Assembly: GCA_028823035.1 (NCBI GenBank)
Contig: JAPKCI010000041.1
Span: 1 to 36,063 of the forward strand
Origin: Rubripirellula sp.
GTDB taxonomy: Bacteria > Planctomycetota > Planctomycetia > Pirellulales > Pirellulaceae
DNA length: 36,063 bases
Direction of reading: 5' to 3'
Each line of letters starts with the position of its first letter. Position 1 is the stretch's first letter. Position numbers and translations under genes: made by a program. Below, piece by piece: positions 5,120 to 12,799 of the stretch. Below the pieces are notes generated by a model that searched no databases, had not been told where the DNA came from, and saw nothing but the letters and a program-made list of their open reading frames with translations.

Positions 5120-5294
5120 CAGTCCATCCTGTCGAAAAGTAGATTCCGCCTATCGGGGGATCACCATACCCTGCCTTCGCCTCCCTTTACCTCGCGTCGG
5201 GTATTTTTCATGTACCACGGTTGACTGATAAAGCTCGGCGAATCGAGTAGAGTGTAACTTGGCGGCATTAGTCAATACACTCATCGTTTTCGCA

Positions 5295-5945
5295 ATGAAG
5301 AAGGAAAAAGCCAGCGTGGATGGGCAGATGTCAACAACCGAATTGGTAATTGCTTCCAAAGGAGGCGACAACGAGGCGTTAGGCAGGCTGCTCGAGCAAT
5401 ATCGGGGGTTTCTCCTGATGCTGGCCCATCGGTATCTCTCTGATCGTCTACGCAGACGCATCGATGCTGCGGATATCGTCCAGTTGACCTATCTGGAGGC
5501 AAAACGGGATCTTACGGCTTTTCGTGGCACATCGCCCGCAGAATTCGCTGGCTGGCTGCGTGGCATACTGAAAAACAATGTTGCAACGGCGGTAACCCGC
5601 CATGTAACGACTCAAAAACGGTCCATTCGCCGTGAAGTGGATACCTCACCTGCCCCCGGGCAGGAATCGAATGCCGGTGGCTGGATCCAACAACTGCCGG
5701 GAAGCAAGACGAGCCCCAGTGGTGTCGTGATCCGGTCTGAAGCGGTGGTCGCCCTCCTGGAAGCCCTCCACCAACTCCCGGAAACACAGGCCGAAGCCAT
5801 TCGGCTCCGCTACATGGAGGGACTGCCGCTTTCAGAAATCGTAGAGCGAATGGGGAAACCTGACACCGCCGTTGCGGGTTTACTGAAGCGAGGCCTCCAA
5901 AAGCTTCGAACGATTCTCAACAGCGACGACTGCCCTTGGATCTAG
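5295..5945 (+). CDS. ECF-type RNA polymerase sigma factor
   Basis: A 216-residue sigma-70 family factor of the extracytoplasmic-function class, with only regions 2 and 4. Region 2 covers LLEQYRGFLLMLAHRYL through DAADIVQLTYLEAKRDL to WLRGILKNN. A polar linker of about 45 residues follows, then region 4 with EAIRLRYMEGLPLSEIVERM and a recognition helix ending GLQKLRTIL. The start is uncertain: ATG 5295 is used here, ATG 5328 (MSTTELVIA) would still keep region 2 intact, and a TTG at 5259 is also in frame. The kinase gene follows 141 bases downstream on the same strand, a pairing known for planctomycete ECF groups in which the kinase is thought to control the sigma factor. No anti-sigma gene is visible. 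Confidence 0.9.
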   Translation: MKKEKASVDGQMSTTELVIASKGGDNEALGRLLEQYRGFLLMLAHRYLSDRLRRRIDAADIVQLTYLEAKRDLTAFRGTSPAEFAGWLRGILKNNVATAVTRHVTTQKRSIRREVDTSPAPGQESNAGGWIQQLPGSKTSPSGVVIRSEAVVALLEALHQLPETQAEAIRLRYMEGLPLSEIVERMGKPDTAVAGLLKRGLQKLRTILNSDDCPWI

Positions 5946-6086
5946 GATTTCGCTCCGCAATCCATTTTTGGTCCCTCAACAGCATCTAGACTGGTGGCTC
6001 ATCCTTGCGCGCCCACAACAGGCCGTTTCGCAGCCTGAAGCAAATGAGGATCCATCAATTTGAAGATTACACCATCAAACTTTTAC

Positions 6087-8264
6087 ATGTCCAAATCACC
6101 ACGCACAAATAATCCTCTCGACGAAGCTTTCGCCGATTATCTGCGAATGTGTGACACTGGTGAATTGGGCAGCCGGGAAGATTTCCTGAAGCTTTTTCCT
6201 GACTTGGCGGATGATCTGAAAGAATTGATCGAAGCCGCGGACATTCTAGATCAGGTAACCCTCAGAGGCCGTGCACCGGGAACCTCCTCTGCTGTTGATC
6301 TCAGAATCCAATTGCCAAACGCGGAGACGATCCGTCTCGCAGCGGCCAAGGGGGATAGCGATGCAGATCCTGACATCACGTTGCCAATGGCACATCGCGC
6401 CGCAAACGACCACGGGCCACGCCTTCCCTACGATCTTGGCGACTACATCCTGTTGGAAGAAATCGGTCGAGGCGGGATGGGCGTTGTCTATCTGGCAAAA
6501 CAACATGAATTGGATCGACATGTCGCGATCAAGATGATTCGCAGTGGGATACTCGCTGACGAGAGTGAAGTCCGACGTTTCTATATAGAGGCACAAGCAG
6601 CCGCGAGACTGCGTCATCGCGGAATTGTCGGGGTCCATCAGTTTGGCCGTCGCGCTGGGCATCATTTCTTTTCGATGGAGTATATCCCGGGAACCGATCT
6701 GCAAAAAAAAATCAATTGTGGCTTGCTGGCACCAAAAGAGGCGGCGAGGTACGTACGCGACGTCGCGAGGGCAATCCACCATGCTCATCAGAAGGACGTT
6801 TTGCACCGTGATCTGAAACCGGCCAACGTACTGATCGATGAATACGACCAAGTCCACGTCACTGACTTTGGCTTGGCAAAGCAAATGGATTCCGACAGCA
6901 GTGTCACAGGGAGTGGTGCTGCCATCGGTACACCCCATTACATGGCTCCGGAACAGGCTGGCGGTCACAGCGATCGCGTCTGTACTGAAAGCGATGTATA
7001 CGCTCTCGGTGCGATTCTTTTTGCATGTCTTACCGGGCGACCCCCGATTCTCGCCGATACGGTTGTGCAAACACTGCTGCAGGTCGTTCACCAACCGGCA
7101 CCCCCCGTTCGCTCGCTTCGCTCCGAAGTACCAGTTGATCTCGAAACGATCGTCGCCAAATGCCTTGAAAAGAACCCGGCCAAGCGTTACGGATCGGCTG
7201 AAAAACTTGCAGATGAGCTTGATGCTTTCATCGAAGATCGTCACATCGAAGCCAGACCACGTTCCCAAATTTTGAAAGCGTGGCATTGGTTCGAAGGGGT
7301 CCCCATCGTCGGTGCTCTGACCGGTCGCCGAATCCTGCATTCCTCGTCTACCCATCGTCGCTTTCAGGCAGCCATGCTGTTGGGGCTACTGCTGACTCCT
7401 TTGTTAGCTGTCTTGCTTCATATCGGAATCCAACACTGGCCCGATGCGATGCCATCTTCTGTGTTAATCGCAGGTGGCGTCGAAGGCGGGCGTTATAACG
7501 AAGTTTCCAACCTGCTCTCACAGCACATCGAGCAGAATCAGCCGGGCGTCACATGCAAGGTAATGAAATCGCTGGGGTCAGAGCAAAACTCGGAGTTACT
7601 ACTCGATGCAGACGTTGATCTAGCGCTGATGCAAGCCATCTCGATCCCTGCTGATGAACGACTGACACATGTAGCACCTCTGTATTACGAACCCATCTAT
7701 GCCTTGGCGCTTAAGGATTCGGGCATTGAGTCAATCGAAGACTTCGACGGGCGCAAAGTCTTACTGGGGACCCCCGGAAGCGGATCAAGAGCCTGTGTCG
7801 ACTTGCTGCTGACCGTGCTGCCAAACTCCTTCGGAAACATGATCAAGGTCTCAGGCAATTGGACACAACTGCTTTCTCCCAATCCACCAGAGGCAGCCAT
7901 TTTGTGCGTTGGTCAAGGCAGCCCCATCCTCACGCAACTCAAGGATGATGGGCGATGGCGACTGCTGCAAATCAATCCCAAAAAAGCCATTCACGTATTT
8001 GACCGATACCCGCTCCGTGACGAGCTGTCGAATAACCCCAAGCCAAGTGCCATACAAACACTCGCCACAACCGCCATTCTGATGGCGAGACAAGATACGT
8101 CCGATGAACTGATCACAGCCGTTCTGAATGCCTGGTATCAGCAAACTGAGAGTGGAAGTCGCATATCGCTGAAGGACGCCAGCCAGTGGACAGAACTCCG
8201 TTTACACCCAGCGGCTGAGAAATACTTCAAAACCCGCACCCAGAATAGAAACGCTGAAAACTGA
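6087..8264 (+). CDS. Transmembrane Ser/Thr protein kinase with TAXI-like solute-binding domain
   Basis: A 725-residue protein. Residues about 10-55 form a helical leader (FADYLRMCD...LFPDLADDLKEL) of a kind seen in planctomycete kinases. The kinase domain (about 118-385) is complete: glycine loop GRGGMGVVY (127-135), Lys149 in VAIK, HRDLKPAN with Asp242, DFG (260-262) and APE (287-289). One hydrophobic segment (about 428-446) is the membrane anchor. Residues about 459-720 resemble TAXI-type solute receptors: IAGGVEGGRYNEVSNLLSQH, then DVDLALMQA, PLYYEPIYALALKDSGIESI and GRKVLLGTPGSGSRA. Inferred topology is kinase inside, binding domain outside, so a small ligand could gate phosphorylation. 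It follows the ECF sigma gene. The start at MSKSPRTNN (ATG) is chosen over an upstream TTG at 6060. An A9 run (6703-6711) lies within the kinase domain. Confidence 0.9.
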   Translation: MSKSPRTNNPLDEAFADYLRMCDTGELGSREDFLKLFPDLADDLKELIEAADILDQVTLRGRAPGTSSAVDLRIQLPNAETIRLAAAKGDSDADPDITLPMAHRAANDHGPRLPYDLGDYILLEEIGRGGMGVVYLAKQHELDRHVAIKMIRSGILADESEVRRFYIEAQAAARLRHRGIVGVHQFGRRAGHHFFSMEYIPGTDLQKKINCGLLAPKEAARYVRDVARAIHHAHQKDVLHRDLKPANVLIDEYDQVHVTDFGLAKQMDSDSSVTGSGAAIGTPHYMAPEQAGGHSDRVCTESDVYALGAILFACLTGRPPILADTVVQTLLQVVHQPAPPVRSLRSEVPVDLETIVAKCLEKNPAKRYGSAEKLADELDAFIEDRHIEARPRSQILKAWHWFEGVPIVGALTGRRILHSSSTHRRFQAAMLLGLLLTPLLAVLLHIGIQHWPDAMPSSVLIAGGVEGGRYNEVSNLLSQHIEQNQPGVTCKVMKSLGSEQNSELLLDADVDLALMQAISIPADERLTHVAPLYYEPIYALALKDSGIESIEDFDGRKVLLGTPGSGSRACVDLLLTVLPNSFGNMIKVSGNWTQLLSPNPPEAAILCVGQGSPILTQLKDDGRWRLLQINPKKAIHVFDRYPLRDELSNNPKPSAIQTLATTAILMARQDTSDELITAVLNAWYQQTESGSRISLKDASQWTELRLHPAAEKYFKTRTQNRNAEN

Positions 8265-11053: not shown

Positions 11054-12727
11054 TCAGGACCCCAATTCGACGTCAATATTGGCCTCGTCAGCAGCGTCCC
11101 GAAGCTTCGACAGTGCCCGGGCCTCCAATTGCCGGATGCGTTCCTTAGTCACTCCCAATTCTTCACCTACCTGCTTCAGCGTCAGTGGCTCCTTGCCACG
11201 CCCGAGGCCGAAACGGGCAGTGATGATTTTCTGCTCACGCTCATCCAGTCGGTTCAAAATTTTCGACAACTCACGCTGCCGTGATCGCTGAACTGTCTCC
11301 TCAACATAAGGATCAAGACGTTCATCCTGACAGGCGACAAACAACTCTTCGGTGGTAGTACGGAATCGGTCGCGATGTTTGAACTCACTTGGAATCGTCC
11401 GAGCAAAGTTTTTCATGATTGCCCATGAAGCATAAGTGCTGAACTTGTTGCCGCGTGAATAATCAAACTTTTCCACCGCGCGAATGAGAGACATGTTGCC
11501 GTCACTCACGAGAGAGAAAAAGTCGTCGGTACTTGCAACGTGCCGCTTGGCGATCGAAACGACCAAACGAAGGTTGCTTTGCACAATCCGGTTCTTTACC
11601 AGAACTGCCGCTTCATACAGATCATCAATCCGGTCCATGATCGCAGTCTTGCTACCTTCGGACTCGTGAAGACTCTCGCGAAGACGGCTCGCAGAATGCT
11701 TCAGATAGCTCATTTTCCGAAACAAATGATACTCCTGCTCTCGCGTCAACAGAGCAACGTCGTAAAGAGCAGCCAGGTAGCTTGGCAACCCGGCTGGAAC
11801 GCGAACCTTGCGCGGTGCCGTTGCCGGTTGGGGAACTGGCCCGAGGTATTCTGCTTCGCGATCTACCGACTCAAAATCTTCGTTGTAGATGTAATCAAGT
11901 GGAAGTTCTCCGACTTGCTCTAGCCGCATATCAAGCAGGATCCGTTGAATACTGGTTCGCGTTCGCTTGAAACGCTTGCACAGCTGGGCAACAGTAGCAC
12001 CGTGTGTGTAGAGCTTGAAAATCGATCGCTTGTCGTCTCCAGTCAATGCACCCCGATGGTTGGGAAAGATCGCCAAAGACTGGTGGTCAGCGTCGAAATT
12101 CTTGAGGGTGTAGCGGATTGTTTCGGGACTGCGTTTCATGTGCTCGGACAGTTGCCGAGTCACCTCAGAGAGACTGGCACCGCCTTCAACAAGTTGTCGG
12201 GCCCTCTCTATCATCTCTGACTTCTCATCTTCACTCAGCTGGCTGAAGCGTTCGCCCCGCTTAATCTTGTCCCGGTTGTTGGAAACAAACTGCTCGACAC
12301 TGCTATGCAGGAACCCAACCCGTTTTCTGCCGCCAAACAGCATTCGGCGGCTCACCAGCCCTGCATCACGCCAACGACTGATCGTTTTCGTGGAGACATT
12401 GAACATCTTGCTGAGTTCATCAACTGTGTGAACCGGTTCCATGAATTCGTTGATCACGATGTCTGCTGAGTCGCTGAGATCCTCGATCAGCAGGCGTACA
12501 TCATGCTTAAGATCCGCTGCAGCAATGCTGTGGCGACTAGGTGATTCCGGCCGATAGTTAGTGACCCGGAAGCAGCAGTAGTCGAACGCATAGGAGCGAT
12601 CTGATTCGATTTCACCATACAGCTTTTCGGCTAACGCAGCCTGTTCAACCTTCTTCGCTTTGGGTGCAAAGCGAGTCAATTGATCGCGTAGTTCCTTGAT
12701 TTTTTCGTCTCGGTAATCTTCGTGCAT
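11054..12727 (-). CDS. Sigma-70 family factor with N-terminal triple-HTH extension
   Basis: A 557-residue protein. The C-terminal part is a sigma-70 factor: region 1.2-like LTREQEYHLFRKM (327-339), region 2 with IVQSNLRLVVSIAKRH and LIRAVEKFDYSRGNKFSTYASWAI (414-437), a shortened region 3, and region 4 with LDEREQKIITARFGLGRG and LKQVGEELGVTKERIRQLEARAL. Region 2.4 reads WAIMKNFART where housekeeping sigmas have WWIRQAITR, so it is probably an alternative factor. The first 300 residues contain three helix-turn-helix-like units: a MerR/excisionase type (99-150, VDELSKMFNVSTKTISRWRD), a second at 185-211 and a third at 243-269. The start at MHEDYRD follows a GGGAGAG stretch on the minus strand; ATG 12799 would add 24 residues. 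The lone transcript ends at the hairpin downstream. Confidence 0.88.
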   Translation of the reverse strand: MHEDYRDEKIKELRDQLTRFAPKAKKVEQAALAEKLYGEIESDRSYAFDYCCFRVTNYRPESPSRHSIAAADLKHDVRLLIEDLSDSADIVINEFMEPVHTVDELSKMFNVSTKTISRWRDAGLVSRRMLFGGRKRVGFLHSSVEQFVSNNRDKIKRGERFSQLSEDEKSEMIERARQLVEGGASLSEVTRQLSEHMKRSPETIRYTLKNFDADHQSLAIFPNHRGALTGDDKRSIFKLYTHGATVAQLCKRFKRTRTSIQRILLDMRLEQVGELPLDYIYNEDFESVDREAEYLGPVPQPATAPRKVRVPAGLPSYLAALYDVALLTREQEYHLFRKMSYLKHSASRLRESLHESEGSKTAIMDRIDDLYEAAVLVKNRIVQSNLRLVVSIAKRHVASTDDFFSLVSDGNMSLIRAVEKFDYSRGNKFSTYASWAIMKNFARTIPSEFKHRDRFRTTTEELFVACQDERLDPYVEETVQRSRQRELSKILNRLDEREQKIITARFGLGRGKEPLTLKQVGEELGVTKERIRQLEARALSKLRDAADEANIDVELGS

Positions 12728-12799
12728 CTCCGTCTCTCCCAGCGTTTGCACAGCAGTCGACCACTCTTTCCCTGCGACCCCGGCGGATCGCTCGACCAT

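Follow-up and report, generated by a model that had tools for sequence, protein, structure and literature searches.

A predicted receptor Ser/Thr kinase with a TAXI-type solute-binding domain, associated with an ECF sigma factor in Pirellulaceae

A single polypeptide encoded in 36,063 nucleotides of Rubripirellula sp. DNA (contig JAPKCI010000041.1; this whole stretch is hereafter the window) joins a complete Hanks-type Ser/Thr kinase domain, one transmembrane segment and a C-terminal half resembling TAXI solute-binding proteins (SBPs). This architecture had been proposed in an earlier sequence-only reading and was borne out by Pfam matches and a hydropathy scan. On balance, the protein is probably a receptor kinase of the membrane, built as a single chain and sensing an organic anion similar to glutamate; it would act on the partner sigma factor or in one pathway with it. 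The principal features are as follows.

5259..5945, forward strand: partner ECF sigma factor (TIGR02984, 220.1 bits against a cutoff of 183.75)
6087..8264, forward strand: kinase-transmembrane-TAXI receptor, one open frame of 725 aa followed by a stop
6447..7208, forward strand: Hanks-type Ser/Thr kinase domain, residues 121-374 (PF00069)
7374..7430, forward strand: transmembrane segment, residues 430-448, the sole segment above threshold in the hydropathy scan
7467..8231, forward strand: TAXI/NMT1_3 domain, residues 461-715 (PF16868), predicted to lie on the periplasmic side

Receptor gene and kinase domain

The receptor frame may alternatively begin at a longer TTG start at 6060. All three motifs quoted in the sequence-only reading, DVDLALMQA and GTPGSGSRA among them, were found in its translation. 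The kinase domain was matched by Pkinase (PF00069) with an E-value of 2.3e-50 and 171.9 bits against a Pfam cutoff of 31.7, and the catalytic motif set of a Hanks-type Ser/Thr kinase (glycine loop, VAIK Lys, HRD, DFG and APE) is complete, with GRGGMG at residue 127, VAIK at 146, HRDLKPAN at 240, DFGLAK at 260 and GTPHYMAPEQ at 281. The VAIK Lys, HRDLKP, TDFGLA, GTP and PEQA were unchanged across all 24 aligned sequences. The receptor is thus a predicted Ser/Thr kinase and would be expected to carry out phosphotransfer. A full-length single-sequence structure model gave a pLDDT of 35.9 and was discarded.

Family and fold of the TAXI domain

Residues 461-715 were matched by NMT1_3 (PF16868) with an E-value of 2.7e-18 and 67 bits, far over the Pfam cutoff of 27, as the suspected resemblance to TAXI proteins had predicted, and the NCBIfam model TRAP_TAXI (TIGR02122) scored 84.3 bits, 0.05 bit short of its cutoff of 84.35. 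An AlphaFold2 model of residues 455-725, built from 13 aligned sequences, reached a pLDDT of 85.8 and a pTM of 0.85. When this model was compared with the PDB using Foldseek, the seven best rows (1us4, 8u79, 9ibo, 8s4j, 4ddd and 9ibp twice) were all TAXI-type SBPs with E-values of 1.4e-16 to 2.4e-14, 1us4 scoring best (E 1.4e-16, TM 0.77), and the eighth row was set apart at 1.9e-10; the predicted fold is that of a TAXI binding protein. Both outcomes named beforehand as refuting the sequence-only reading, no significant solute-binding family match and a fold of another shape, were thus checked for and did not occur. A sequence profile of 24 relatives matched seven distinct PDB sequences, some titled TAXI and others 'immunogenic protein' or 'GluR0 ligand binding core', the latter entries presumably being TAXI proteins as well. 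Their identity as such is supported in part by the sections of PMC11574862 drawn on here.

Putative ligand pocket

According to the same sections of PMC11574862, glutamate is contacted in VcGluP by Y45, S75, Q93 and E125. Binding depends chiefly on Y45 and Q93, affinity falling 213-fold in Y45A and 990-fold in Q93A. The equivalent positions of the receptor were assigned by counting along the 8s4j alignment, and residues were tallied over 110 fusion proteins from 108 genomes.

7494..7496, forward strand: Tyr470, equivalent of VcGluP Y45 by alignment to PDB TAXI sequences; Y in 107 of 110
7578..7580, forward strand: Ser498, equivalent of VcGluP S75; S in 94, T in 12, A in 4
7632..7634, forward strand: Gln516, equivalent of VcGluP Q93; Q in 108 of 110
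7689..7691, forward strand: Glu535, equivalent of VcGluP E125; E in 103, D in 6, G in 1

With S/T (106) and E/D (109) taken together, all four putative pocket residues are nearly invariant, and their conservation makes glutamate, or an amino or dicarboxylic acid akin to it, the most likely ligand. The equivalents of VcGluP Y200 and M201 vary across the 110 fusion proteins, so that the ligand may differ from glutamate, which is itself a guess.

The putative pocket residues Gln and Glu are 17-18 residues apart in all 110 fusion proteins, 16-24 apart in 18 of 18 kinase-less long-frame TAXI proteins (17 in 13 of them) and 28-30 apart in 9 of 9 soluble-type TAXI proteins of Pirellulaceae, relative to which the fusion domain is 10-13 residues shorter in one segment. 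Some SBP-like domains work through protein contact, and the shortening would suit a TAXI domain that has lost small-molecule binding and acts instead as a structural or docking element; this is quite improbable, because few positions of the domain are as well conserved across distant genera as the putative pocket residues, and docking would not need such conservation. Ligand binding is the preferred function of the domain in what follows. The nine soluble-type proteins themselves (L225-L232 and L236) carry Asn in seven, Met in one and Gln in one at the Gln position, and Asn in all nine at the Glu position, residues hinting at a ligand other than glutamate for that group.

Relationship to other TAXI proteins

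The long class of TAXI proteins was chosen by frame length, and a hydropathy scan of 13 of its members detected at least one segment in each and a segment after the TAXI domain in seven; the long kinase-less proteins may well be membrane receptors. In a tree of 63 TAXI domains, the soluble ones formed one group (98/96) and the fusions another with weak support (72/90, 75% of bootstraps), with the long-class proteins placed between the two, and a tree of the kinase domains neither resolved nor excluded a single origin of the fusions. Judged by spacing and tree, the fusion TAXI domain groups nearer the long, probably membrane-bound proteins than the soluble ones of Pirellulaceae.

Three TAXI matches were found in the receptor's own genome, namely the receptor gene and two of the long class, together with one fused TRAP permease on another contig (TIGR02123, 494 bits); a DctM match was absent from the window contig. 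Membership in the class of TAXI-TRAP transporter subunits, which are free periplasmic proteins or lipoproteins with a linked TRAP permease, was ruled out, as the domain is fused to a kinase and a transmembrane segment and the TRAP permease lies only on another contig. The presence of that permease would be compatible with a transceptor-like arrangement, in which the TAXI domain also contacts a TRAP permease and the kinase reads the transport state; such an arrangement is scarcely credible given the lack of a DctM match in the window contig, the shortening in the fusion domain of a segment of the soluble TAXI proteins, and a domain tree that sets the fusions apart from the soluble proteins of Pirellulaceae. 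The receptor as a stand-alone sensor is the reading retained here.

The same genome encodes a TAXI protein of 470 aa with two hydrophobic segments (L001 1294-2706), close to which a small ORF (L001 381-884) reads by eye as a response-regulator receiver; the two are perhaps another TAXI signalling unit. Elsewhere (G107, L113 2010-4205) a TAXI frame lies directly behind hisG on the same strand.

Distribution of the fusion

The earlier suggestion to survey planctomycete genomes was followed using 222 Pirellulaceae genomes of at least 80% completeness, 173 of which were matched by the TAXI profile, and a kinase was sought in every listed TAXI frame of at least 600 aa. The fusion was verified in at least 105 of the 222 and was partially present in three more (G068, G127, G232), where a contig end cuts off the TAXI part. 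Two less complete Pirellulaceae genomes (G008, G015) and one Pirellulales genome of another family (G039) also carry it, giving a verified total of at least 108 genomes, and named relatives with the fusion include Rhodopirellula, Rubripirellula and Roseimaritima. Because the same single open frame recurs in so many genomes, the joining of kinase and TAXI domain is beyond chance.

G039 provided the only fusion found outside Pirellulaceae in even samples of the phylum (392 genomes, excluding the frames above 600 aa of G281, G288, G308, G330, G341, G356, G362 and G465) and of the order (296 genomes, excluding a 661-aa frame of G025). In the stretch around each of 28 TAXI loci outside Pirellulaceae, a kinase HMM match was absent in 27. 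The exception, G042 (L121 2753-5539), encodes TAXI and kinase in two neighbouring genes on one strand, the TAXI gene coming first and the kinase including a membrane segment; the first in-frame kinase ATG lies 69 nt past the TAXI stop. G042 thus holds the parts of the receptor in unfused form. A second, divergent kinase-TAXI fusion with no sigma gene alongside was found in G115 (L171) and G139 (L170).

Linkage to the partner sigma factor

The receptor gene had been described as sitting right behind an ECF sigma gene, and the gene in question (its start may be TTG 5259 or an in-frame ATG further on, at 5295 or 5328) indeed exceeds the cutoff of TIGR02984, a planctomycete ECF sigma subfamily. 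Adjacency was defined as a sigma gene upstream on the same strand within 1.2 kb, and a genome was considered assessable where at least 1 kb was available. Among 107 Pirellulaceae genomes with the fusion, 68 have the sigma gene immediately upstream and 34 do not, and a contig end cuts the region in five, so that adjacency holds in 68 of 102 assessable genomes. The sigma gene stays beside the kinase where other neighbours were not found (L043, for example). Where the two are apart, an ortholog-level sigma is present elsewhere in 32 of the 34 genomes, G120 and G132 being the two without it, which makes the link stronger than a reader of the window alone could have known.

Ortholog-level sigma genes were sought across Pirellulaceae at a threshold of E 1e-40, which was chosen after viewing the list and has no sharp gap around it (G211 is included at 1.6e-41, G174 lies at 8.4e-39). 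At this threshold, the 222 genomes divide into 101 with fusion and sigma, 4 with the fusion only, 11 with the sigma only and 106 with neither; the sigma thus occurs in 101 of the 105 genomes where the fusion was verified and in 11 of the other 117. Counting the three partial fusions, the figures become 104, 4, 8 and 106, and by genus 21, 2, 2 and 39; the genomes share ancestry and are not independent, and Fisher p-values for the co-occurrence overstate the case. The fusion occurs alone in G120, G121, G132 and G247, although in G247 a sigma HMM match lies next to it. In genera g1, g3 and g83 the sigma is absent from all ten genomes lacking the fusion, and where the genes adjoin, one missing contig could remove both. 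In genera g11, g43 and g76 the two are non-adjacent yet mostly co-occur, and the sigma-only genomes include four in g43 and two in g11. In G111 (L249 2435-4787) the sigma gene lies beside a kinase without TAXI that ends shortly past the membrane helix, with a TAXI protein on another contig, and in G211, which has the sigma without the fusion, no kinase match occurs within 6.5 kb and residue 99 of the sigma is Asp.

A functional link of receptor and sigma is supported by this genome context. The 34 non-adjacent genomes of the 102, together with G120, G121 and G132, which carry the fusion without an ortholog-level sigma, would also accord with a true receptor kinase that senses through TAXI but mainly targets something other than the sigma, the latter merely sharing its operon or transcribing the kinase gene. 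That account seems rather unlikely in view of the retention of the sigma elsewhere in 32 of those 34; it draws on the intact acidic motif described below and is opposed by the frequent pairing of the sigma's paralogs with kinases. A kinase acting on the sigma, or in one pathway with it, is the reading pursued further.

Possible control of the sigma factor

ECF43 sigmas have no DxxD, and the charge is gained by phosphorylation of a Thr that stands in the motif's place (PMC13147305, PMC8103513, in the sections cited). As [DE]xxD is intact in 70 of 70 sigma rows from 69 genomes, a charge-restoring switch of this type was excluded; with the acidic motif in place, any phosphorylation would have to target another site. 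According to PMC8999054 (section 3.4), kinase-associated ECF groups other than ECF43 keep a DAED-like motif, and the control of kinase-paired sigmas that retain DxxD awaits elucidation. One residue was considered a candidate site.

5622..5624, forward strand: sigma Ser99 codon in the TQKRS motif, a candidate phosphorylation site; residues numbered from MSTTELV at 5328

Position 99 is S/T in 69 of 70 sigma rows from adjacent loci and in 8 of 10 from non-adjacent ones, and 7 paralogs have neither residue there. All 20 additional ortholog-level sigmas, which had no kinase match in the stretch around the gene, likewise carry Ser99. At 40 paralogous sigma loci the position holds Asp in 37, Asn in 2, Ala in 1 and Ser in none; of the 40, 33 immediately precede another kinase gene in the same orientation, and Asp occupies the position in 31 of them. 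A role of Ser99 as a general mark of kinase pairing was thereby ruled out: most of the paralogs are kinase-paired yet lack the Ser, and the residue is therefore a trait of this clade. Within the clade, Ser99 in TQKRS is the best candidate for phosphorylation suggested by the alignments. The SPS linker motif proved generic, being present in 7 of 7 paralogs.

A scan of ten paralog-linked kinases detected TPR repeats in six and WD40 in one, whereas the remaining three matched no additional family; the pairing of sigma and kinase resembles a planctomycete module that recurs with its C-terminal part swapped. Paralogous sigma genes directly before TPR- or WD40-repeat kinases were seen at L268, L281, L263, L274 and L283.

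An alignment 5' of the sigma gene contains conserved blocks. Promoter-like sites were no commoner than chance (1 found versus 2.3 expected), and terminator-like sites numbered 7 versus 3.6 expected (sd 2.0). The window also encodes, at 11054-12799 on the reverse strand, a sigma-70 family protein of 581 aa, whose extended N-terminal region shows HTH_17/MerR-like matches and which is about 92-93% identical in five close relatives.

Proposed mechanism

In the proposed mechanism, the periplasmic TAXI domain would close around a small organic anion, and closure would be relayed via the single membrane helix to the cytoplasmic kinase, whose activity would change in one direction or the other, probably by altered dimerisation. 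The kinase would then act on the ECF sigma encoded upstream, or in one pathway with it, presumably by phosphorylation, for which Ser99 would be the best candidate residue, and ligand availability would thereby set transcription. A broader account, possible but held only tentatively, is that a membrane-anchored TAXI branch gave rise to receptors in planctomycetes, that one of these was fused to a kinase in Pirellulaceae, and that with its own sigma it would form a complete line from glutamate-like ligand through kinase and sigma to transcription, with Ser99 replacing the common Asp of the relatives as a phospho-switch.

Which stimuli activate bacterial protein kinases is named as an outstanding question in the part of PMC6069109 cited. 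Ligands and pocket residues are known for the family to which the receptor's sensor belongs, so that its ligand could be screened directly with one soluble domain, and the co-retained sigma-kinase pair with its clade-specific Ser offers a defined site at which to address the control of DxxD-keeping sigmas. If the proposal is true, it is also a case of TAXI domains put to use in signalling rather than transport, and the receptor with one sigma suggests a direct nutrient-to-gene signalling line.

Comparison with known systems

A kinase-TAXI fusion was not found described among the papers listed in the literature searched; the tables of PMC11032199, a paper that counts 307 kinase architectures in Planctomycetota and outgroups, lay outside that search and may list the pairing, and neither NMT1 nor solute occurs in its main text. 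All comparisons below refer to the cited sections of the papers concerned.

The receptor domain resembles VcGluP and TtGluBP (PMC11574862; PDB 8s4j, 1us4) in fold and in the pocket residues Y, S, Q and E, but these are free transporter subunits, whereas the receptor's domain is kinase-fused and membrane-anchored and has a shorter Gln-Glu segment. TAXI-GltS fusions (PMC12344293) likewise recruit a TAXI domain away from TRAP permeases by gene fusion, joining it to a transporter where the receptor joins it to a signalling enzyme. Hanks-type kinases beside ECF sigmas are known from the ECF43 pairs PknT-EcfP and PknS-EcfK (PMC13147305, PMC8103513, PMC8999054 section 3.4), in which the sigma lacks the DxxD that the receptor's sigma has as [DE]xxD and for which the sections cited mention no TAXI sensor. 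The planctomycete groups ECF59, ECF61, ECF62 and ECF217 (PMC8999054), whose regulation by kinases is predicted from synteny, offer a further comparison for the sigma at 5259-5945: a kinase gene beside the sigma gene, the trait of such kinase-associated groups, was found in the window and in 68 of the 102 assessable Pirellulaceae genomes, and the difference lies in the TAXI sensor of the receptor's kinase. Receptor Ser/Thr kinases paired with ECF sigmas are already known, and what appears new is a TAXI sensor, from a transporter family, on a receptor Ser/Thr kinase.

GlnH belongs to an SBP family other than TAXI. In the actinobacterial GlnH-GlnX-PknG system (PMC6069109, PMC9769921), it is proposed that a periplasmic Asp/Glu-binding protein regulates a Ser/Thr kinase on the other side of the membrane, as is suggested here for the receptor. 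That system consists of three separate proteins with a soluble kinase and a metabolic target, whereas the receptor holds sensor, membrane helix and kinase in one chain and has a sigma partner; of the systems compared, it is the nearest working analogue of the receptor.
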